A stretch of 64,000 nucleotides of DNA. Source: Enterobacter hormaechei subsp. xiangfangensis. Lineage in GTDB: Bacteria > Pseudomonadota > Gammaproteobacteria > Enterobacterales > Enterobacteriaceae. Each line of letters opens with the position of its first letter. The first letter of the stretch is position 1. Below the pieces are notes generated by a model. That model had not been told where the DNA came from and searched no databases. It saw only the letters and a program-made list of their open reading frames with translations. A program made the position numbers and the translations under genes. Positions 8,289 through 18,102 of this stretch are shown here, piece by piece. The stretch spans positions 558,001-622,000 of the forward strand of contig NZ_CP017183.1 in the NCBI RefSeq assembly GCF_001729785.1, in the 5' to 3' direction.

Positions 8289-8786
8289 ATGGCCGTACCT
8301 GTACATCTTTTTTTAACTAATGACGGCGGCACAATGATTTGTGGTTCTTGTGACGTTGCACAAAGGGAAGGAAGTATTGAGCTAAGAGGATTACAACATA
8401 ACCTTAGCCTACCAACAGACTCGGCAACGGGCAAGGTCACCGGCACTCGCCAACATTCGCCGTTTCAGTTTACCAAGGAACTGGATAGCTCTTCGCCCTA
8501 TCTGTTCAAAGCGGCAGCAACGGGTCAGACCCTTAAAACGGCAGAATTCAGGTTTTACCATATTAACTATTCCGGGCAAGAGGAGGAGTATTACCGAATC
8601 ACGCTCGAGAACGTTAAGGTCATTTCTGTGAGTCCAGTAATGTACGACACCCGAGGCTGTCCGGGGACGGGGCATATGGAGGAAGTGGCGTTTAATTATG
8701 AGAAGATTACCCATTTGTACAAGGACGGTAACTTGTTAGCGCACGACGCGTGGAACGAACGTCCAACATCAGGTTCCGCTGCTTGA
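8289..8786 (+). CDS. hcp: Hcp-family type VI secretion tube protein, orphan
   Basis: 165 residues, start ATG 8289 behind AAGGAG. Hcp hallmarks: an opening strand MAVPVHLFLTNDGG, a middle TGTRQHSPFQFTKELDSSSP with partners, and GQEEEYYRITLENVKVISV followed by the MEEVAFNYEKITH signature. Length is normal for Hcp and there is no C-terminal toxin extension. Hcp forms the hexameric inner tube of the T6SS and can carry small effectors in its lumen. No other T6SS structural gene is in the window, so this is an orphan hcp that presumably serves a system elsewhere and carries the upstream cargo. Confidence 0.9.
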   Translation: MAVPVHLFLTNDGGTMICGSCDVAQREGSIELRGLQHNLSLPTDSATGKVTGTRQHSPFQFTKELDSSSPYLFKAAATGQTLKTAEFRFYHINYSGQEEEYYRITLENVKVISVSPVMYDTRGCPGTGHMEEVAFNYEKITHLYKDGNLLAHDAWNERPTSGSAA

Positions 8787-9358: not shown

Positions 9359-10363
9359 TTAACTAAACACCGGCACCCCCAGCCCAACCTTCACCTCCCT
9401 CAGCGTCTCCAGCGTCACCCCTTGCGCCCGTTCGGTCCCGCGCTTCAGCATCGCCATCAGCTCCCCCTTATCCCGCATATACATCGCCCTCCGCTCCCGC
9501 ATCGGCGCAATCAGCTCCTGCAAACAACCCTCCAGTTCGTTCTTACACGCCCGGTCTCCCAGCCCACCCGCCTGATAGTGCGCCTTCATTGCCGCCACTT
9601 TGGCCTTGTCCGGATGAAACGCATCGAGATACGTAAACACCACGTTCCCCTCAATCTCCCCCGGGTCGCTCACCTTCAGGTGGTTCGGGTCGGTGTACAT
9701 GGCGCTTACCGCGCGATGAATGGTCTCTTCGCTGGCCGAAAGGTGCAGCGTGTTGCCCAGCGATTTCGACATCTTGGCGCTGCCGTCGATGCCGGGCAGG
9801 CGGCTGGTGTCGCTCAGCATCGCCTTGCAGTGGCGCAGTACCGGGGCGGGCAGCAGGTTGTTCATCTTGTGCACAATCTCGTTGGTCTGCTCAATCATAG
9901 GCAGCTGGTCGTCGCCGACCGGCACGCACTCGGCCTTGAACGCGGTGATGTCCGCCGCCTGGCTGATGGGGTAGGCCATAAACCCGACCGGCAGCGAGCG
10001 GGCAAAGCCCTTCTGCGCAATCTCGTTTTTCACCGTCGGGTTACGCTCCACGCGGGCGACGGTGACGATGTTCATGTACAGCATCGTCAGCTCGGCGAGG
10101 GCGGGCAGGGCGGACTGCAGGCAGATGGTAGTCAGGTTCGGGTCGATGCCGGCGGCGAGGTAGTCGGCCAGCACTTCGGGGATGTTGTCGCGAATTTTTT
10201 GCGGGTTGCTGCCGTTGTCGGTCAGGCCCTGCAGGTCGGCAATCAGCACAAACTGGTTGTGCGTGTGCTGGAGCGCCACGCGCTGGCGCAGCGATCCGAC
10301 GAAATGGCCAAGGTGCAGCGGGCCGGTTGGACGATCGCCGGTGAGGATGGTGGGTGCGTTCAT
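9359..10363 (-). CDS. Tryptophanyl-tRNA synthetase, second (TrpS2-type)
   Basis: 334 residues, class Ic synthetase that charges tRNA-Trp. The HIGH-equivalent is GPLHLGH at residues 14-20 and the KMSKS loop is AKMSKSLGN near residue 200. GDDQ (substrate pocket) and a C-terminal anticodon-binding helical part are present. Start ATG 10363 has AAGGAGT seven bases upstream. The housekeeping enterobacterial trpS lies with dam/gph/rpe, not beside fosA, so this is most likely an additional synthetase. Upstream lies a tryptophan attenuator with a WW leader peptide, implying that expression rises when charged tRNA-Trp runs low. Auxiliary TrpRS enzymes can confer indolmycin resistance (family knowledge); not testable here. 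Confidence 0.9.
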   Translation of the reverse strand: MNAPTILTGDRPTGPLHLGHFVGSLRQRVALQHTHNQFVLIADLQGLTDNGSNPQKIRDNIPEVLADYLAAGIDPNLTTICLQSALPALAELTMLYMNIVTVARVERNPTVKNEIAQKGFARSLPVGFMAYPISQAADITAFKAECVPVGDDQLPMIEQTNEIVHKMNNLLPAPVLRHCKAMLSDTSRLPGIDGSAKMSKSLGNTLHLSASEETIHRAVSAMYTDPNHLKVSDPGEIEGNVVFTYLDAFHPDKAKVAAMKAHYQAGGLGDRACKNELEGCLQELIAPMRERRAMYMRDKGELMAMLKRGTERAQGVTLETLREVKVGLGVPVFS

Positions 10364-10411
10364 AAAGACTCCTTAATGTGCAATTGCCGAAAGGGGTCTT
10401 AGATGTGTGAA

Positions 10412-10517
10412 AGCCGCCTTTCGGCGGCTATCTGAAAATGGGGAAAACTACTCCGTGCCGCCTTTAAGAAGGCAGCCACCAGCGGTTTACGGTGAGCACG
10501 GCGTGGTTTATGTTCAT
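10412..10517 (-). promoter_or_regulatory. Tryptophan transcription attenuator upstream of trpS2
   Basis: All parts of a trp-type attenuator occur in order on the minus strand. A 17-residue leader (10517-10464) has tandem Trp codons at 10481-10476. Segment 1 GCTGCC (10476-10471) overlaps the Trp codons. Segment 2 GGCGGC (10462-10457) can pair with segment 1 or with segment 3. Segment 3 AGCCGCC (10429-10423) and segment 4 GGCGGCT (10418-10412) form a 7-bp GAAA-looped terminator. Ribosome stalling at Trp would free segment 2 to pair with 3 and prevent termination. The U-run after segment 4 is weak (TTTCACACATCT), the only doubtful part. Confidence 0.8.
10464..10517 (-). CDS. Tryptophan-rich leader peptide for trpS2
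   Basis: The 17-residue frame [17 protein letters not shown] begins at ATG 10517 and ends at TAA 10466-10464, 100 nt before the trpS2 start. Residues 13-14 are consecutive Trp, a codon rarely paired by chance, and the ending RWWLPS resembles TrpL (GWWRTS). The stop falls in the loop between segments 1 and 2, as required for attenuation. A purine-rich AAAGAG immediately precedes the ATG, so the ribosome site is close but not ideal. It probably acts only as a ribosome sensor. Confidence 0.75.
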
Positions 10518-10562
10518 CTCTTTACCGTATCACGTCCGGCGCGAAAAACAAAAGGGCACGTC

Positions 10563-10988
10563 ATGCTGCAATCACTCAACCATCTGACCCTCGCGGTCAG
10601 CGACCTGCAAAAAAGCGTCACCTTCTGGCACGAACTGCTGGGGCTAGAGCTGCACGCCCGCTGGAATACCGGGGCCTATCTCACCTGCGGCGAACTGTGG
10701 GTCTGCCTGTCGTACGACGAGGCGCGCCGGTACGTGCCGCCGCAGGAGAGCGACTACACCCACTACGCATTTACCGTGGCGGAAGAAGATTTTGAACCGT
10801 TCTCGCACAGGCTGGAGCAGGCGGGCGTCACCGTCTGGAAGCAGAACAAAAGCGAGGGGGCGTCGTTCTATTTTCTCGACCCGGACGGGCACAAGCTGGA
10901 GCTGCACGTGGGCAGCCTCGCCGCGCGGCTGGCGGCGTGTCGCGAGAAGCCCTATTCGGGCATGGTGTTTGCCTCAGACGAGGCTTGA
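10563..10988 (+). CDS. fosA: Fosfomycin glutathione transferase FosA2-like
   Basis: 141 residues, the exact size of chromosomal FosA2 of the Enterobacter cloacae complex, which it closely resembles from memory. It is a glyoxalase/VOC-fold metalloenzyme that opens the fosfomycin epoxide with glutathione. Mn ligands are H7, H67 and E113; the K+ loop lies in [20 protein letters not shown]. Start ATG 10563 is chosen because the protein begins [12 protein letters not shown] like the family; earlier in-frame codons run through the divergent trpS2 leader. The 3' end overlaps the convergent lacI-type gene by 15 bp. Single-gene transcription is likely. Confidence 0.95.
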
Positions 10989-11981
10989 GGCGCGTACCTT
11001 CAGCCTGCCCGCCAGCGTCACGTGCGTGGCGGCATCTTCCTGATTGCACAGGTACTCCACCGCCAGCCGTCCCAGCTCGCTGTAGGGCAGCTGGATACTG
11101 GTCAGCGGCGGGGTGAGCTGCTCGGAAATCTTCTGGTCGTCGTAGCCCGCCAGCAGCATGTCCTGCGGGATGCGCACGCCGTTCACCGCCAGCGCCTGAT
11201 AGCAGCCAATCGCCAGCCAGTCGCTGGCGCAGAAGATGGCGTCCGGGCGCTCGGCCAGTTCCAGCAGGGAGGTGGTGGCGGTAAAGGACTCGCTGAACTG
11301 CCAGTTGGTCTGGCGCACCAGACCGTCGTCGCACGCGAGTCCGGCCTGCTGCAGCGCGGCCTGGTAGCCCGCCAGACGCTGGCGCGAGGCTTCCATCCAG
11401 CTCTCGCCGGTGATGTGGGCGATGCGCGTGGCCCCGCAGGCGATGAGGTGTTTCGTCACCTGGAAGGCGTTGGCGTAGTCGTCCGGGATAAACGACGGCA
11501 GCAGCGGCGAGCCGGGGTCGCGCTGGTTGAGCAGCACCAGCGGGATGCGGGTGCAGTCCTGGAAGGCCGTCATGTCGACCAGCGTGGTGACCGGTGAGGC
11601 GAGGACAATCCCGATGCAGTTGCGCTTCTCCAGCTGGCGGATGATGTTCAGCGCCAGCTCGATGTCGTCGCCGTAGTCGTAGACGGTGAGCAGAGTCTCG
11701 TTGCGCCACGCCGCTTCCCGCGCCTGGCTGATGGCGTCGATAAACGGGTCAAAGCTCTGCATGGAACTGACCAGCAGGGCGATCTCTTCCTGGTTGCGCG
11801 GGGCGTGAACGGCGGGGAGGCGGTCGTAGCCGAGCTCGGTAGCGACGCCGATGACCCGCTGGCGGGTGTCGTCGCTGAGCTTGATGTTGCGGGACTGGTT
11901 AAGCACCAGCGATACCGTCGCCTGCGACACCCCTGCCGCCCGCGCAATATCGTTCATCGTCACTTTCGTTTTTCGCTTCAT
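10974..11981 (-). CDS. LacI-family transcriptional regulator
   Basis: 335 residues. An N-terminal LacI helix-turn-helix ([22 protein letters not shown], residues 8-29, described in part here) and hinge helix are followed by a periplasmic-binding-type effector domain, with [16 protein letters not shown] and LAGYDD near the end. It is divergent from a glycoside hydrolase and sugar symporter operon, and by position is most likely the local repressor responding to the imported sugar. Its C-terminus overlaps the fosA 3' end by 15 bp. Length and domain order are normal. Confidence 0.9.
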
Positions 11982-12166: not shown

Positions 12167-13255
12167 ATGAAAGAGCAGTGGAGCAGGGAGCAGGCACAGG
12201 CGTGGTATCAGCAGAAGGGCTGGCTGTGCGGGTTTAACTATCTGCCGTCGACGGCGGTGAACTGGACCGATATCTGGCAGGAAGAGACCTTCGATGCCGC
12301 AACCATCGAGCGTGAGCTGGGCTGGGCGGCGGAGGCGGGCTATAACACCCTGCGCATTAATCTGCCGTTTATCGTCTGGGAGCACGACCGCGACGGGCTG
12401 ATGGCGCGCATCGACAGCTTTTTGACGATTGCCGACGGTCGCGGCTTCAGCACCATGCTGACCCTGATGGACGACTGCGGCTTCTCCGGCGACGAGCCGT
12501 ACCTCGGCCCGCAAAAGCCGCCGGTACCGGGCAAGCACAACAGTCAGGCGGCGGCGAGCCCGGGGCGCGGCAAGGTGTGCGATCCCGACTGCTGGCCGCA
12601 GATTGAGCGCTATATCCGCGACGTCGTCCGCCAGTTCCGCGACGATAAGCGCGTGCTGCTGTGGGATCTCTACAACGAGCCGGGCAACCGCGGCATTTTC
12701 GCGACGGGCACGCAGGAGGTGCAGTACGACGCGAAGCTGGAGACCTGCGCGCACGAGTTGATGAAGCTGGCGTTCCAGTGGGTGCGTGAAGAAGACCCAA
12801 CCCAGCCGCTCACCGTCTGCGCGTGGCGTCTGCCACCGGAAGAGGAGGGCGAGACGTTCTTCCGGCATCCGCTGGACCAGACCGCACTGGCACTCTCGGA
12901 CGTGGTGAGCTTCCACGCTTACACCCATACTGGCCGCATGACGGCGATTATTCAGCAGCTGCAACAGCTCGGTCGCCCGCTGTTCTGCACCGAATGGCTG
13001 GCGCGCCACGTGGGCAGCACCATCGAAGAGCAGCTTCCGCTGATGTACGCGGCGAAGGTCGCGCCATACCAGTGGGGGCTGGTGCGTGGCAAAACCCAGA
13101 CGTGGCTGCCGTGGCCGGTGGTGATGAAGGAGTCCACGGACTACTGCCGCCTCTGGTTCCACGACGTGTTCGAGGAGAACGGCATTCCGTTCTCGCGCCG
13201 TGAAATCGCCCTGATGCAGCAGCTGCGCAAGATCGCCCCGCAGGCGCAGGACTAA
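12167..13255 (+). CDS. Cellulase/xylanase-like glycoside hydrolase (GH5/clan A type)
   Basis: 362 residues with no signal peptide, so cytoplasmic. It reads as a (beta/alpha)8 glycosidase: a [11 protein letters not shown] strand, the acid/base Glu in WDLYNEPGN, and a candidate nucleophile Glu in FCTEWLARH near the C-terminus. The E-to-E spacing fits clan GH-A. The substrate is not evident; with a partner sodium:sugar symporter it likely splits an imported glycoside. The start ATG 12167 follows AAGAGGA. It is the first gene of the operon, 50 bp upstream of the transporter, with a strong hairpin between. Confidence 0.8.
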
Positions 13256-13264
13256 TAATATCGA

Positions 13265-13284
13265 CCCGGCGGCCGACCGCCGGG
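13265..13284 (+). other. Intercistronic hairpin
   Basis: CCCGGCGG-CCGA-CCGCCGGG, an 8-bp GC stem with tetraloop and no U-run, lies between hydrolase and transporter. More likely mRNA processing or stability than termination. Confidence 0.5.
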
Positions 13285-13305
13285 CAACCAGGCAGGCATA
13301 TAACA

Positions 13306-14700
13306 ATGGCAATGACAATGAAAATACCGTCTCGCGAGCTGTGGTCTTATTTTGGCTATGGTTTAGGTCAGTGTTTTAGCTTTGGTTTAGTGGGTTCGTT
13401 TATTAACTATTTTTACACCGACGTGCTGGGGATCTCGGCGCTGGCGGCCAGTACCATCTTCCTGATTGCCCGCGCGTGGGACGCGGTTCACGATCCGCTG
13501 TTTGCCAGCATTATGGATACCATTAACAGCCGGTTCGGCAAGTTTCGCCACTTTTTGCTGATCGCCCCGCTGCTGATTACCGGCGTCACGCTGCTGTCGT
13601 TCTATAAAATCGAAGCGGATATGACCACCAAAATCCTCTACGCCGGTGTGACGTATATCCTGTGGGGAACGCTGTACGCCATCTCCGATATCCCGTTCTG
13701 GTCGATGTCGTCTGTGATGACCAACGACTCCGCCCAGCGCACCCGCGCGGTGACGGCGGCGATGCTCGGGGTGAACGCGGGGATTGCCTGCGCCAACATC
13801 TTCTTCCCGAAGCTGGCGGCGTTCTTCGCCCAGTACAGCAGCGATAAAGGCTACTTTATGGCGGCGCTGGTGATGATGCTGGTGGGCCTGCCGCTGATGC
13901 TCAACGGCTTTATGCAGATCAAAGAGCGCGTGCCGCCGAGCCCGGAAAAGGTGACCATTCGCGACACCTTCCACAACCTGCGCCAGAACAAGCCGCTGTT
14001 TATCGTCCTGCTGTCGTTCTTCTTCTGCGTGTTCCACAACGTGGCGGGCGGTCTGTACATCTACTTCTTTATCAACAATCTGGGCGACGGCAGCCTGCAG
14101 ATGGCGATTGGCGTGATGGGGATCGTGGCGGCGGTGCTGTGCCTGGTCGCGCCGATGCTGACGCGCCGAATCCAGAAGCGGAAGCTGTTTATGATCCTCT
14201 GCGGGCTGGACGTGGCGGTGCGCGTGGTGATGTGGTTTGTCGGGTATCAGCAAGTGACGATGCTGTTTATTCTGCTCGGCCTGAGCACGCTGTTCGTGAT
14301 GATGACCAACATCCTCACCTCGTCGATGATTGCCGACACCATCGAGTACGCGGAGTACCACACTAACAAGCGCTGCGCGGCGATCACTTTCTCCGGGCAG
14401 ACCTTCACCGGCAAGATGTCGGTGGCGGTAGGCGGCGGGTTAATCGGCGTGTTTCTGACGATGATCGACTATGTGCCGCAGGCGCAGGCCCAGAGCGATA
14501 GCGTGCTGGCGGGGCTGTTCTTCGGCATTTGTTTGTTACCGGCGATAGGCTCGCTGATCCGCATGGGCTTTATGTCGCGCTTTACCTTTACCGAGGAGAA
14601 GCATGCGGAAGTGTGTCGGCTGCTGGCGGAGCGCAGGCGGGGGAGCGAGCAGAATGGCATCGTGGATGAGGCGTTGACCCGCCCGGTATCGGTCAATTAA
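13306..14700 (+). CDS. GPH-family glycoside:cation symporter
   Basis: 464 residues with about 12 membrane segments, belonging to the MelB/GPH (glycoside-pentoside-hexuronide) group. Evidence: an N-terminal YFGYGLGQCFSFGLVGSF, RAWDAVHDPLFASIMD (the conserved Asp-rich segment that in MelB binds cation), and SSVMTNDSAQRTRAV between helices 4 and 5. It imports a sugar or glycoside with Na+ or H+. The gene follows the hydrolase and ends in a strong terminator at 14708-14730. A hydrolase-symporter pair under a LacI regulator is a typical catabolic unit; the substrate is not readable. Confidence 0.9.
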   Translation: MAMTMKIPSRELWSYFGYGLGQCFSFGLVGSFINYFYTDVLGISALAASTIFLIARAWDAVHDPLFASIMDTINSRFGKFRHFLLIAPLLITGVTLLSFYKIEADMTTKILYAGVTYILWGTLYAISDIPFWSMSSVMTNDSAQRTRAVTAAMLGVNAGIACANIFFPKLAAFFAQYSSDKGYFMAALVMMLVGLPLMLNGFMQIKERVPPSPEKVTIRDTFHNLRQNKPLFIVLLSFFFCVFHNVAGGLYIYFFINNLGDGSLQMAIGVMGIVAAVLCLVAPMLTRRIQKRKLFMILCGLDVAVRVVMWFVGYQQVTMLFILLGLSTLFVMMTNILTSSMIADTIEYAEYHTNKRCAAITFSGQTFTGKMSVAVGGGLIGVFLTMIDYVPQAQAQSDSVLAGLFFGICLLPAIGSLIRMGFMSRFTFTEEKHAEVCRLLAERRRGSEQNGIVDEALTRPVSVN

Positions 14701-14734: not shown

Positions 14735-16039
14735 CTAATTCCGCAGCTTCAGGGACTCGGGGAGGTGGAGTATTGAGCTCTGAATACTGGTTCCGATGGT
14801 AAAAGGGACGATCCACAAACGTAGCGCATGGCTGTCCGGCTTATGAAGTTCGAAGGGATGGGGAAGCGCATCGCTAAAACCGTCATGCTGCGGGTAGATC
14901 AGGATCATATCGCCGCGGCTATCGAGATATTTCGTTCCGTAGGCCAGCATCTGGTAAAGATCGCTTTGCGAAATGTTAAAGCCAGGTTTATGAGGCTTAA
15001 TCTTTTTCCATTTCGTATCGCAAATAATTGAAGAATGTTTCGACGTGTCATACGGGCGAAGCCAGATATCCGGCTTGAGTCTAAACATATACCTGGTGTG
15101 ATATCGAGCCAGAGTGTGTGTTTTTGCTTGGGTATCAATTTGGTAACGTTGATGATGATGATGCCTCATCCACGCCGCAACAAAGGATTCAAATACCGCT
15201 TCCATTGGAAAGAGCAGCGATATGGCATCAGCATGACCCTGCATACAAAGTGGTGACTCCCCGTGTAGGATCAATTTGGCCCACTCCAGCGCCTGTTCAT
15301 AGTGATGCATATGCCTGTCGAGGCGAACCAGATCGAACGCGTGTGCGGTATCAACAACGGGAGGAATACCTTCGAAGGCCGACTGCAAGGGGCGAAGCTG
15401 CTGGATGAGCTGAGGGTTGCGGGTCAGGCGCGAAACCGTATCGATGGCCGTTTTGAGAATGCGGTTCTCCGGTCGGTCAACACTGTACTCGTCATACTCC
15501 ACCTGAAAGCGATCCCGGCGAACGCTATTTGTCGACAGTTGTGCTGAAACCCGCAGTTTTCCCTTCATCCACGGTAGATTCTCCTGCTGGCGAAGGTAGT
15601 CACGCTTAAGACCCTGCTGCAGGACCGCCTGGACGCTCTGGATAAATTGATGAATAAAGATATCCATCAGCGGCATGCGCGAGGTTTTGATACTGGCGGA
15701 GGTTGTGGCGATGTGCCGGAAGGTTTTCAGCGTGCGCAGCATCATCATCAGCTGTTCGCGGGCGTTATCATGGCCGGTCTTTGGCAACACCTCGATGAAC
15801 GCTCCTCCCGGCAGCGCAATGACGCCGACATAGTTTTTCACCTGCAGCACCTTCACGCGCCCGACCGTTTTCAGCGTCAGCAGGCGCGCGTCGTATTCCG
15901 CATCGTCGTTCAGGCAGCATTGCTCCAGCCACGCAAAACAGGCCGGAGGAAGCTCCACTGCGTCCTTAACCCGGCCGCTGTCCTCTTTACTGACCAGATA
16001 ACCGTATTCAAAGGTGGACCATTGCCGCCGCCCGGTCAT
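14735..16039 (-). CDS. mcrC: McrC, nuclease subunit of McrBC type IV restriction
   Basis: 434 residues. The N-terminal part is the McrB-binding region (KVLQVKNYVGVIALPGG). The nuclease core near residues 325-350 carries LKPDIWL and IICDTKWKK, i.e. the D ... DxK pattern of a PD-(D/E)XK enzyme. McrC supplies the cutting activity to the McrB motor on modified DNA. Its ATG overlaps the mcrB stop in ATGA (4 bp), so it is coupled. It ends next to a bidirectional terminator. The length is longer than E. coli McrC (348), mainly through an inserted helical middle. Confidence 0.92.
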   Translation of the reverse strand: MTGRRQWSTFEYGYLVSKEDSGRVKDAVELPPACFAWLEQCCLNDDAEYDARLLTLKTVGRVKVLQVKNYVGVIALPGGAFIEVLPKTGHDNAREQLMMMLRTLKTFRHIATTSASIKTSRMPLMDIFIHQFIQSVQAVLQQGLKRDYLRQQENLPWMKGKLRVSAQLSTNSVRRDRFQVEYDEYSVDRPENRILKTAIDTVSRLTRNPQLIQQLRPLQSAFEGIPPVVDTAHAFDLVRLDRHMHHYEQALEWAKLILHGESPLCMQGHADAISLLFPMEAVFESFVAAWMRHHHHQRYQIDTQAKTHTLARYHTRYMFRLKPDIWLRPYDTSKHSSIICDTKWKKIKPHKPGFNISQSDLYQMLAYGTKYLDSRGDMILIYPQHDGFSDALPHPFELHKPDSHALRLWIVPFTIGTSIQSSILHLPESLKLRN

Positions 16040-18102
16040 TCGTCGTTCTCCGCGCCTCGCGCACCTGCATCGTAAATCTGACGCCAGGCGATGGCATTAT
16101 TCCAGACAGGATCGTCTTCGCCTGCAAGGTGATAGCGCTCTCCCTCTTCCTGCAGATCGTCCGATGCATCCGTTCCAAACAGCCGCTGAATATTTCCCTC
16201 GTTTTTGATCGAACGGATGAAGCACAGGGCGGGATCCTGCTTCTGGTTATCTCCAAGGACCAGACGAATTTTCTGCCAGTCGTTGTAAAAGTACTCCTCC
16301 AGCAGCGGCAGCACTTTATTTTTAATCACCCGCTGCAGACGGGCGAAAGCAACGTCATCGTCCTCCGTCTCAATTACCGGTATGAAAAAAGCGTGCCCGA
16401 GCGTGTGCTCGCTATCGTACAGTGCCTCAATGCGTTCATTGAGCATCTGCAGTAGCCGTTTGAGATCGATACCTTTGATGACGTGGCCTTCCAGAATGGA
16501 GGCTTTCGGCAGCATGGCCTTAAACTCGAAGCGGCGGCGCAGGGCGGTGTCCAGAGCGGTCAGGGAACGGTCCGCGGTATTCATGGTGCCGACCAGGAAC
16601 AGGTTGTTTGGCACGCTGAATTTTTCGCCCGAATAGGGTAGCGTCACGCTCAGGGCCTCGGGTTCACCCATGCGCTTGGATTTCTCAATTAAGGTGATGA
16701 GCTCTCCGAAAATTTTGGAGATATTGCCACGGTTAATCTCGTCAACAATCAGCACGTAGTTCTGGCGTTTTGCCGGTGCATTTTTTTTCGGTGTGACGGG
16801 AAGATTATAATTATCATGAAGATAGTTGAGGATACCCCGGACATACGACTCGTTGTGGATATCAATCCCGTTGTTCTGATACCAAGCTTTGATGTCCTTC
16901 ACGTAGGCGTTGTATCCATTCCCCAGATCCCCTTTTTTGCTGTTTAAAGGGAAGATGCCGAAGTTCGTTTCACTTTTATAGGTGACGCCGAACGGTTTAC
17001 CTGATGTCGTTTTGAGCGTGGCGGCTTCGCCATTCAGCAGTTCTTTTTGAAACTTTGATAGCGCCTCGTTCAGCGCCAGCTGTTCACCTGCGTAACCAAA
17101 CGCCGCATCCTCACAGATTTGCTTAAAGACGCCGGATTTAATGTCATAGCGAACGTTACCGTCACGGGTGGTATCGGCGCGTAGCCCTTCAATAAACTCT
17201 TCATAACCAAAGCTTTGGTGGAAAGTGACAAAGCGGATGCGCTGTTCGGAGACCAGCCGGTCATAAAGCGCTTTAAGTGCGTTTCGGTAATCACTGCCCT
17301 GAAGGCCATCCAGCAGGCGGGAATACTCAGCGGGTTCACAGGCACGGACGGCATGCTCAACGGTGGAATAGGTTTTACCCGTCCCCGGAGGGCCATAGAG
17401 AATGACGTTCAGTGGAACATCCGCCACGCTCTCATCCGTATCCTGATCGTCGTCTTCGGCCCAGGACTCGCTACCTACCAGGCCGATATCGCTCTTATCT
17501 TTGATGAAATGCGTGTAGAGATGCCACAGCGACATATTGAGTTCGACAGGGTCTACATGGCCGCCCAGCTCGCGGTTCAGAGCCGCCTTCAGCTCCAGGT
17601 TTTTTTCAAACCACGTCCCTTTCCCGGCGAGCCCAAGCCCGAAGCGGTTATTACAGTAGTTATAAATGCGGGAAAACATTTTGGTATTTACCACGTTCGA
17701 AACCCGCTCAGGGTACAGCGTGGCAAAAGCCCGGTGACACAACGCCCAGTACTGTTTCTTGAGAATGGATTTGGCCTTAAGCGCCTGTAGCTTGTTGACC
17801 ACCTTTTCATATACGGCCGGGGTGCAGCCCTGTGCCATCAGGGTTGTGATTTCCCGCAGGTGAATCTGGGCCGCATTGTATTCGTTCTGCGACATTCCAC
17901 CCTGTTTAATGCTGGCGACGCCGTTGGAGCGTTCATACCAAAGTGCCTTGATAAGGCTTTGATCACGAAACTCGGGTCGCTCTGTCGCTACGCGTTTGAC
18001 CATCTGGTGATAGGCTGGCCCCCATTTAGGGCTGTATCGGCTGTTGTTATTGATATGCTCATTAAAGAAGGGGGCTAACGCGGTGCGATCCTGAACCATC
18101 AT
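16036..18102 (-). CDS. mcrB: McrB-type GTPase/AAA motor with non-canonical N-terminus
   Basis: 688 residues, against 459 in E. coli. The AAA+ core has Walker A YGPPGTGKT near residue 235, the FVTFHQSFGYEEFIEGL helix typical of McrB, an insert of about 100 residues, Walker B LIVDEINRGNISKIFGE, and the McrB signature GTMNTADRSLTALDTALRRR. The first 230 residues do not look like the DUF3578 methylcytosine-binding domain of E. coli McrB and are mostly helical, so the recognised modification may differ. Starts at either of two adjacent ATGs (18102 or 18099) behind GGAG. It forms an operon with mcrC. Confidence 0.9.
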   Translation of the reverse strand: MMVQDRTALAPFFNEHINNNSRYSPKWGPAYHQMVKRVATERPEFRDQSLIKALWYERSNGVASIKQGGMSQNEYNAAQIHLREITTLMAQGCTPAVYEKVVNKLQALKAKSILKKQYWALCHRAFATLYPERVSNVVNTKMFSRIYNYCNNRFGLGLAGKGTWFEKNLELKAALNRELGGHVDPVELNMSLWHLYTHFIKDKSDIGLVGSESWAEDDDQDTDESVADVPLNVILYGPPGTGKTYSTVEHAVRACEPAEYSRLLDGLQGSDYRNALKALYDRLVSEQRIRFVTFHQSFGYEEFIEGLRADTTRDGNVRYDIKSGVFKQICEDAAFGYAGEQLALNEALSKFQKELLNGEAATLKTTSGKPFGVTYKSETNFGIFPLNSKKGDLGNGYNAYVKDIKAWYQNNGIDIHNESYVRGILNYLHDNYNLPVTPKKNAPAKRQNYVLIVDEINRGNISKIFGELITLIEKSKRMGEPEALSVTLPYSGEKFSVPNNLFLVGTMNTADRSLTALDTALRRRFEFKAMLPKASILEGHVIKGIDLKRLLQMLNERIEALYDSEHTLGHAFFIPVIETEDDDVAFARLQRVIKNKVLPLLEEYFYNDWQKIRLVLGDNQKQDPALCFIRSIKNEGNIQRLFGTDASDDLQEEGERYHLAGEDDPVWNNAIAWRQIYDAGARGAENDE

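Follow-up and report, generated by a model that had tools for sequence, protein, structure and literature searches.

A conserved Trp-codon leader before a second tryptophanyl-tRNA synthetase gene of Enterobacter is probably an attenuator that acts mainly at translation initiation

How would a cell control a second tryptophanyl-tRNA synthetase (TrpRS)? This question is raised by a stretch of 64,000 nucleotides from Enterobacter hormaechei subsp. xiangfangensis (the window), in which a TrpRS gene on the minus strand, trpS2, is preceded by a small open reading frame with two tandem Trp codons (WW). An earlier note on this DNA had described a Trp-codon leader, mutually exclusive stems and a stop codon placed between the first two segments, and all of these are indeed present on the minus strand where it had put them. 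The interval that it gave was incomplete, since it ended at 10412; the element extends to 10365 and includes a fifth segment and a buried Shine-Dalgarno sequence. The region 10532-10361 (minus) probably works as a ribosome-mediated attenuator, with charged tRNA-Trp as its signal and the auxiliary TrpRS as its target, and acts mainly at the level of translation initiation. The segments follow each other in the order 1, 2, 3, GAAA loop, 4, 5 and 6 (5' to 3') upstream of trpS2:

10524-10532, minus strand: extended -10 element TGATACGGT (hexamer TACGGT at 10529-10524), with its end 6 nt upstream of the leader ATG, recognised by the TAnnnT spacing in representatives
10517-10464, minus strand: leader open reading frame, 17 codons plus stop, peptide end RWWLPS, seen in the sequence and in the WW leaders of relatives
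10481-10476, minus strand: tandem Trp codons TGGTGG, putative stall site, seen in the sequence and in relatives
10476-10469, minus strand: segment 1, GCTGCCTT, partner of segment 2
10464-10457, minus strand: segment 2, AAGGCGGC, partner of segment 1 or segment 3
10429-10412, minus strand: hairpin 3:4, AGCCGCC-GAAA-GGCGGCT, with the tail TTCACACA and no U-run
10429-10423, minus strand: segment 3, AGCCGCC
10422-10419, minus strand: GAAA loop of hairpin 3:4
10418-10412, minus strand: segment 4, GGCGGCT
10425-10417, minus strand: part of hairpin 3:4, GCCGAAAGG, that pairs with CCTTTCGGC of segment 5 according to the covariation tests
10400-10386, minus strand: segment 5, AAGACCCCTTTCGGC, whose 5' part pairs with segment 6
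10374-10365, minus strand: segment 6, AAGGAGTCTT, holding the trpS2 Shine-Dalgarno sequence, which is buried by 5:6
9359-10363, minus strand: trpS2, second TrpRS of 334 amino acids, ATG at 10363, assigned by profile and genome comparison

The leader stop TAA occupies 10466-10464, between segments 1 and 2, and its final base is the first base of segment 2. The leader region is more stable than dinucleotide shuffles of it (z -3.33; 1 of 200 shuffles did as well). The Trp-codon leader with its exclusive stems before trpS2 is a genuine, widely conserved and coherent element.

The product of the downstream gene matches the TrpRS profile TIGR00233 with 212.5 bits (cut-off 176.75). The genome encodes another TrpRS that is only 28% identical to it, which bears out the claim of a second enzyme. 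Against the trpS model this other TrpRS reaches 387 bits and the product of the gene in the window 212, so the latter gene is regarded as the auxiliary one, trpS2. The nearest solved chains to its product are 2a4m ("Tryptophanyl-tRNA synthetase II") and 1yi8. In an alignment, five trpS2-type proteins have the motif GDR(P/A)TG in place of GAQPSG in canonical TrpRS, a Gln-to-Arg exchange, and the Gln of this motif is presumably linked to indolmycin sensitivity. An auxiliary TrpRS gene is reportedly the subject of an experimental paper by Vecchione and Sello 2010. TrpRS1 of Streptomyces is described as indolmycin-resistant and a TrpRS II as stress-induced (PMC9437257), and an auxiliary TrpRS is described in an indolmycin producer (PMC6804068); TrpRS inhibitors more generally are dealt with in PMC10201369.

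How widespread is the leader? Whole-genome searches gave trpS2 matches in 8 of 274 genomes of the class (E up to 1e-60) and in 65 of 394 genomes of the order (E up to 1e-90), the own genome included, and a genome-collection scan was kept to the best 80 of 585 relatives. The 151 trpS2-type loci gathered include the window, come from two overlapping collections and are not all independent. A WW leader, that is, an ATG-started open reading frame with tandem TGG about 150-240 nt upstream of the matched gene start, is found before 135 of these 151 loci (125 distinct sequences). One of the remaining loci has a single Trp codon and 15 have no such leader. In the single-Trp locus, L022 from Superficieibacter, the leader reads ...LLWLPS and the RNA segments are retained. 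Hosts of WW leaders include Enterobacter, Lelliottia, Citrobacter, Salmonella diarizonae, Klebsiella, Raoultella, Kluyvera, Serratia, Providencia, Hafnia, Edwardsiella, Morganella, Aeromonas, Moritella, Photobacterium, Marinobacter and Cocleimonas. For the tests below, 24 representatives were picked greedily at less than 80% identity from the 125 distinct sequences, all of which bear WW. WW is fixed in 24/24, no adjoining position is fixed and the peptide varies from 12 to 28 residues; since the representatives were chosen among WW-bearing loci, it is the drift of the non-WW residues that is informative.

The RNA can also be found by its structure. A covariance model of the relatives has a single site in the own genome (E 1e-19; next best E 0.23). 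It matches 46 of 295 genomes of the order (E up to 1e-4), and 44 of these matches lie directly before trpS2 matches of the order search. The other two are before a shortened trpS2 (G461) and at a contig edge (G554). In G461 (L190 223-904) the element is 5' of a trpS2 frame of 203 amino acids that has a gap inside and appears to be shortened. In 321 genomes of the class no other match was better than E 0.001. Ten weak matches of the RNA model in class genomes (22-28.9 bits) were taken as chance; the open reading frames of the best one (L154) read as unrelated genes. Rfam at gathering scores, trp leader and T-box included, had no match in the window, and a search of 10300-10600 at E up to 10 gave eight weak matches, none of them above its own gathering score.

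The leader goes together with a duplicated synthetase. TrpRS genes were counted in two sets, the first made up of 28 of the 65 order matches, 7 class matches (own genome excepted) and 5 genomes without trpS2, the second of 25 loci from the best 80 of 585 relatives. Two TrpRS above the curated cut-off were present in 22/22 leader-bearing genomes of the first count and in 23/23 of the second, the single-Trp L022 included, while in genomes without a WW leader the trpS2-type enzyme was the sole TrpRS above cut-off in 13 of 15 (11 of 13 in the first count and both Acinetobacter in the second); by kinship among the genomes, the independent events are far fewer than these counts. The exceptions, with two TrpRS and the WW leader absent, are G129 and G024; what the latter has of the trpS2-type gene is a fragment at the edge of a contig. 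Additional weak matches of 38-58 bits, below cut-off and uncounted, were taken for tyrosyl-tRNA synthetases. In two loci in which the trpS2-type enzyme is the sole TrpRS, L138 (G457) and L146 (G556, a genome only 79% complete), the WW open reading frame is absent and remnants of the hairpins are discernible by eye. Possibly these remnants are what is left of a switch that decayed once the canonical trpS had been lost.

Do the segments pair as proposed? In an alignment-free test, the duplex energy of own partners was compared with that of swapped partners in the 24 representatives; for this main test and for the penalty, output and barrier tests described below, the apex of hairpin 3:4 was corrected by hand in L065, L075 and L076. 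Own partners were favoured for 1:2 (-18.2 versus -14.7 kcal/mol, z -6.5), 3:4 (z -6.3), 5:6 (-11.1 versus -7.8 kcal/mol, z -7.7) and segment 5 with the strand of hairpin 3:4 (-21.0 versus -16.5 kcal/mol, z -8.0; n=24 in each case). For 2:3, z was -2.9 (n=24) with the corrected apices and -1.1 in an earlier run with automatic ones; this earlier run agrees for all other pairings. All five pairings hold among 15 distant sequences picked by hand (z -2.4 to -6.0). The non-partner controls 4:6, upstream flank:5, 2:5 and 1:5 had z values of -0.2, +0.2, +0.8 and +1.2, respectively. A direct 2:5 pairing, present in some folds, was dropped on account of this lack of covariation.

Pairs were also counted on an alignment of 45 rows, from which L047, L048, L049, L066, L067, L069, L080, L115 and L127 were left out as having late stops or as outlier. 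There, 3:4 is paired in 92.4% of cells and 2:3 in 94.8%, the latter with double changes in three of six pairs. Orthologues without WW or the 2:3 pairing would have contradicted the earlier note; both features are widely kept in the relatives, which speaks in its favour. Segment 5 and the 3:4 strand are paired in 86.1% of cells versus at most 63.6% in slid controls, with double changes in seven of nine pairs and two pairs unpaired in 18 and 23 rows. On fixed alignment columns 5:6 is paired in 56.2% of cells, and more cells are paired after slides by +1 and +2; we explain this by a slip of the register between lineages, which is an explanation and not a test. Segment 5 thus has two partners that exclude each other: the Shine-Dalgarno sequence of trpS2 and the 3:4 strand.

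What, then, is the output of the element? The earlier note saw attenuation "exactly as in trpL-trpE", that is, with termination at 3:4, and in this point it is not supported. A scan for terminator-like sites called none at 3:4 in the window, where 2 of the 8 tail nucleotides are U, and U-richness of the tail is not conserved. After the uninterrupted stem, 6-7 U in 8 follow in six of the 24 representatives (L023, L034, L035, L050, L061 and L116) and at most 3 U in eleven. When the tail is counted after 7 bp, the figures are 6/24 with at least 6 U and 10/24 with at most 3 U; the uninterrupted stem ends early at a mismatch in five representatives. The better conserved output is the burial of the trpS2 Shine-Dalgarno sequence by segment 5. 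Its probability of being unpaired is 0.18 in the window and on average 0.21 in the 24 representatives. The comparison value, from 23 mechanically defined open frames of the window of which some are perhaps not genes, is 0.43 (p 5e-5). With shuffled upstream sequence the mean was 0.30, and 5 of the 24 representatives lie above their own shuffles.

Classical transcription attenuation of the trp type, with 3:4 as intrinsic terminator, 2:3 as antiterminator and segment 5 as secondary, would make use of the leader and of 1:2, 2:3 and 3:4, which are all present and conserved, would suit the six representatives with U-rich tails and has a precedent of the same kind in Streptomyces trpS. It is nevertheless unlikely, since the tails of the window and of the eleven U-poor representatives argue against it and since it leaves the covariation of segment 5 with both the Shine-Dalgarno sequence and the 3:4 strand unexplained. 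In the lineages with U-rich tails, termination may be layered on translational control. A U-run would be unnecessary if the leader ribosome and the structures set the access of Rho within the 100-nt leader, rather than that of the Shine-Dalgarno sequence; such Rho-dependent or polarity control predicts neither the covariation of 5:6 nor the burial, and we judge it highly improbable.

Even less credence is given to an action of the leader peptide in trans, in which the RNA structure merely serves its expression: a trp leader peptide does act in trans in Sinorhizobium (PMC7298713), but here the non-WW residues and the length drift while the RNA pairings covary. That short GC stems and a small open reading frame have come together by coincidence has a negligible chance; each motif is common individually, whereas the conservation of WW, the duplex covariation, the pair counts, the uniqueness of the covariance-model site and the matches in order genomes speak against it.

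Can segment 5 work as a switch? In equilibrium folding with the ribosome footprint masked, access to the Shine-Dalgarno sequence went up by more than 0.1 in 7 of 125 sequences and down in 5, and forcing the complete 2:3, with automatic hairpin apices, freed it in 1 of 24 representatives. When 3:4 was disfavoured by soft penalties, segment 5 moved onto the 3:4 strand. Mean access then rose from 0.23 to 0.54 with segment 2 masked (a rise above 0.2 in 18/24) and from 0.24 to 0.37 with segment 2 free (5/24); for the window alone, with segment 2 free, it rose from 0.19 to 0.71. Barriers were estimated by heuristic path searches at the stage at which segment 5 is transcribed and the Shine-Dalgarno sequence is not yet made. 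The way from the formed 3:4 to the segment-5 alternative has a median barrier of 16.7 kcal/mol (window 17.4), yet it is downhill in the median (-4.8). From 2:3 to the ON form the median barrier is 7.0 kcal/mol (window 5.3) and the path is again downhill (-9.3). This order of barriers is as the model requires in 23 of 24 representatives, the exception being L117. The relapse from 2:3 to 3:4, downhill in the median by -3.0, has a median barrier of 10.1 (window 13.2), which is above the barrier to ON in 21 of 24 and lower in L016, L023 and L061. As long as the Shine-Dalgarno sequence is not yet made, equilibrium favours the segment-5 alternative in many representatives, even with segment 2 masked, so that the OFF state rests on kinetics. 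In these model calculations the switch can be kinetically plausible, and not at equilibrium.

Where would the leader RNA begin? In 20 of 24 representatives a TAnnnT hexamer has its end 6-8 nt upstream of a leader ATG, whereas the same test at 45 other anchors gave 1.4 on average and 4 at most; 11 have TG at the extended position, and a Shine-Dalgarno-like word lies 5' of the leader open reading frame in 4/24. The simple promoter scan of the window did not call the leader promoter. By the usual distance rule between a -10 element and the start of transcription, transcription is predicted to start about at the leader ATG, because the -10 hexamer sits 6-8 nt upstream. Going by the sequence, the leader mRNA is probably leaderless. 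A gene for a fosfomycin glutathione transferase of the FosA/FosA2 family (10563-10988, plus strand; 318.7 bits, cut-off 275) is divergent from the leader open reading frame, and since only 45 nt separate the two ATGs, the promoters of both probably overlap.

Other genes of the window were recorded alongside. On the plus strand, 12167-14700 holds a protein of 362 amino acids that has no NCBIfam match and looks by eye like a glycoside hydrolase; next to it are a symporter of the GPH family (310.6 bits) and a LacI-type regulator (10974-11981). Also on the plus strand, 8289-8786 encodes a candidate Hcp-like protein of a type VI secretion system, again by eye. On the minus strand, two adjacent genes at 14735-18102 weakly resemble McrC and McrB (118 and 117 bits, below curated cut-offs) and are perhaps a restriction or defence pair.

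We envisage the following sequence of events. With plentiful Trp-tRNA, the ribosome would clear WW and sit at the stop codon over segment 2, or leave so that 1:2 forms; 3:4 would be shut before segment 5 emerges, and segment 5 would then take the trpS2 Shine-Dalgarno sequence as 5:6 (OFF). Shortage of Trp-tRNA would stem from starvation, or from overload or inhibition of the housekeeping TrpRS. A ribosome stalled at WW would then cover segment 1, so that 2:3 pairs and keeps 3:4 open. The emerging segment 5 would pair with the free loop and segment 4 and invade segment 3, and the Shine-Dalgarno sequence would be left free (ON). Where a U-rich tail follows 3:4, termination may add to control.

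It is tempting to go further, although we do so only tentatively and hold the whole to be possible rather than probable. The leader would be an undescribed, widespread gammaproteobacterial RNA relay, in which a leaderless Trp-codon open reading frame drives a six-segment, kinetically trapped translational attenuator and switches on an inhibitor-tolerant backup TrpRS when natural tryptophan analogues poison the housekeeping enzyme; the switch would persist only as long as the enzyme serves as a backup, and be lost when it becomes the sole TrpRS. The attenuator itself would bring a translational case based on amino-acid codons, with an explicit relay of three steps, into a field dominated by terminator-based ones, and it would show how a duplicated synthetase is wired as a backup for emergencies. 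That leader and duplication are associated offers a direct evolutionary test. Many gut and water bacteria have the switch before a spare TrpRS, and it appears to raise production of this enzyme when charging fails. Among the genera with the element are such common ones as Enterobacter, Klebsiella, Citrobacter and Aeromonas, where a backup TrpRS of this sort could matter for TrpRS inhibitors.

How does this compare with known systems? In the open-access literature searched there was no description of a gammaproteobacterial trpS2 leader, and "trpS" is absent from the main text of Naville and Gautheret 2010 (PMC2965389); this agrees with the statement of the earlier note that no case was described for a tryptophanyl enzyme in Enterobacteriaceae. 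A precedent outside the family is known from Streptomyces, where attenuators were predicted before trpS, for example trpS2 of S. avermitilis (PMC1262725). As described there, these share a Trp-codon leader open reading frame and attenuation before an auxiliary TrpRS, with the same physiological logic, but they belong to another phylum and are described as transcriptional with terminator hairpins. The trpL RNA of Sinorhizobium meliloti is reported to begin with the ATG of the leader open reading frame (PMC7298713), which is only predicted at trpS2; unlike the element described here, it acts on trpE(G) through transcription attenuation. The sensor before trpS2 is of the known trp kind, and the proposed relay to the Shine-Dalgarno sequence from a probably leaderless open reading frame is a new output. 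In the enterobacterial trp operon attenuator (trpL), tandem Trp codons overlap segment 1, the stop lies between segments 1 and 2, and 1:2, 2:3 and 3:4 are exclusive. All this is shared, whereas in the window 3:4 has no U-run, segments 5 and 6 would relay to a Shine-Dalgarno sequence and the target is a synthetase and not biosynthesis. In ermC, an antibiotic-bound ribosome stalls on a leader peptide and the target Shine-Dalgarno sequence is buried by default. Such drug-induced translational attenuators have in common with the trpS2 leader an open reading frame, a ribosome stall (putative here) and a buried Shine-Dalgarno sequence; in contrast, the signal at trpS2 would be uncharged tRNA at two codons, relayed by six segments. 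The gammaproteobacterial pheST attenuator, unlike the trpS2 leader, controls a housekeeping enzyme by means of a terminator. It shares with trpS2 that a synthetase gene is under a leader with cognate codons (PMC1262725).
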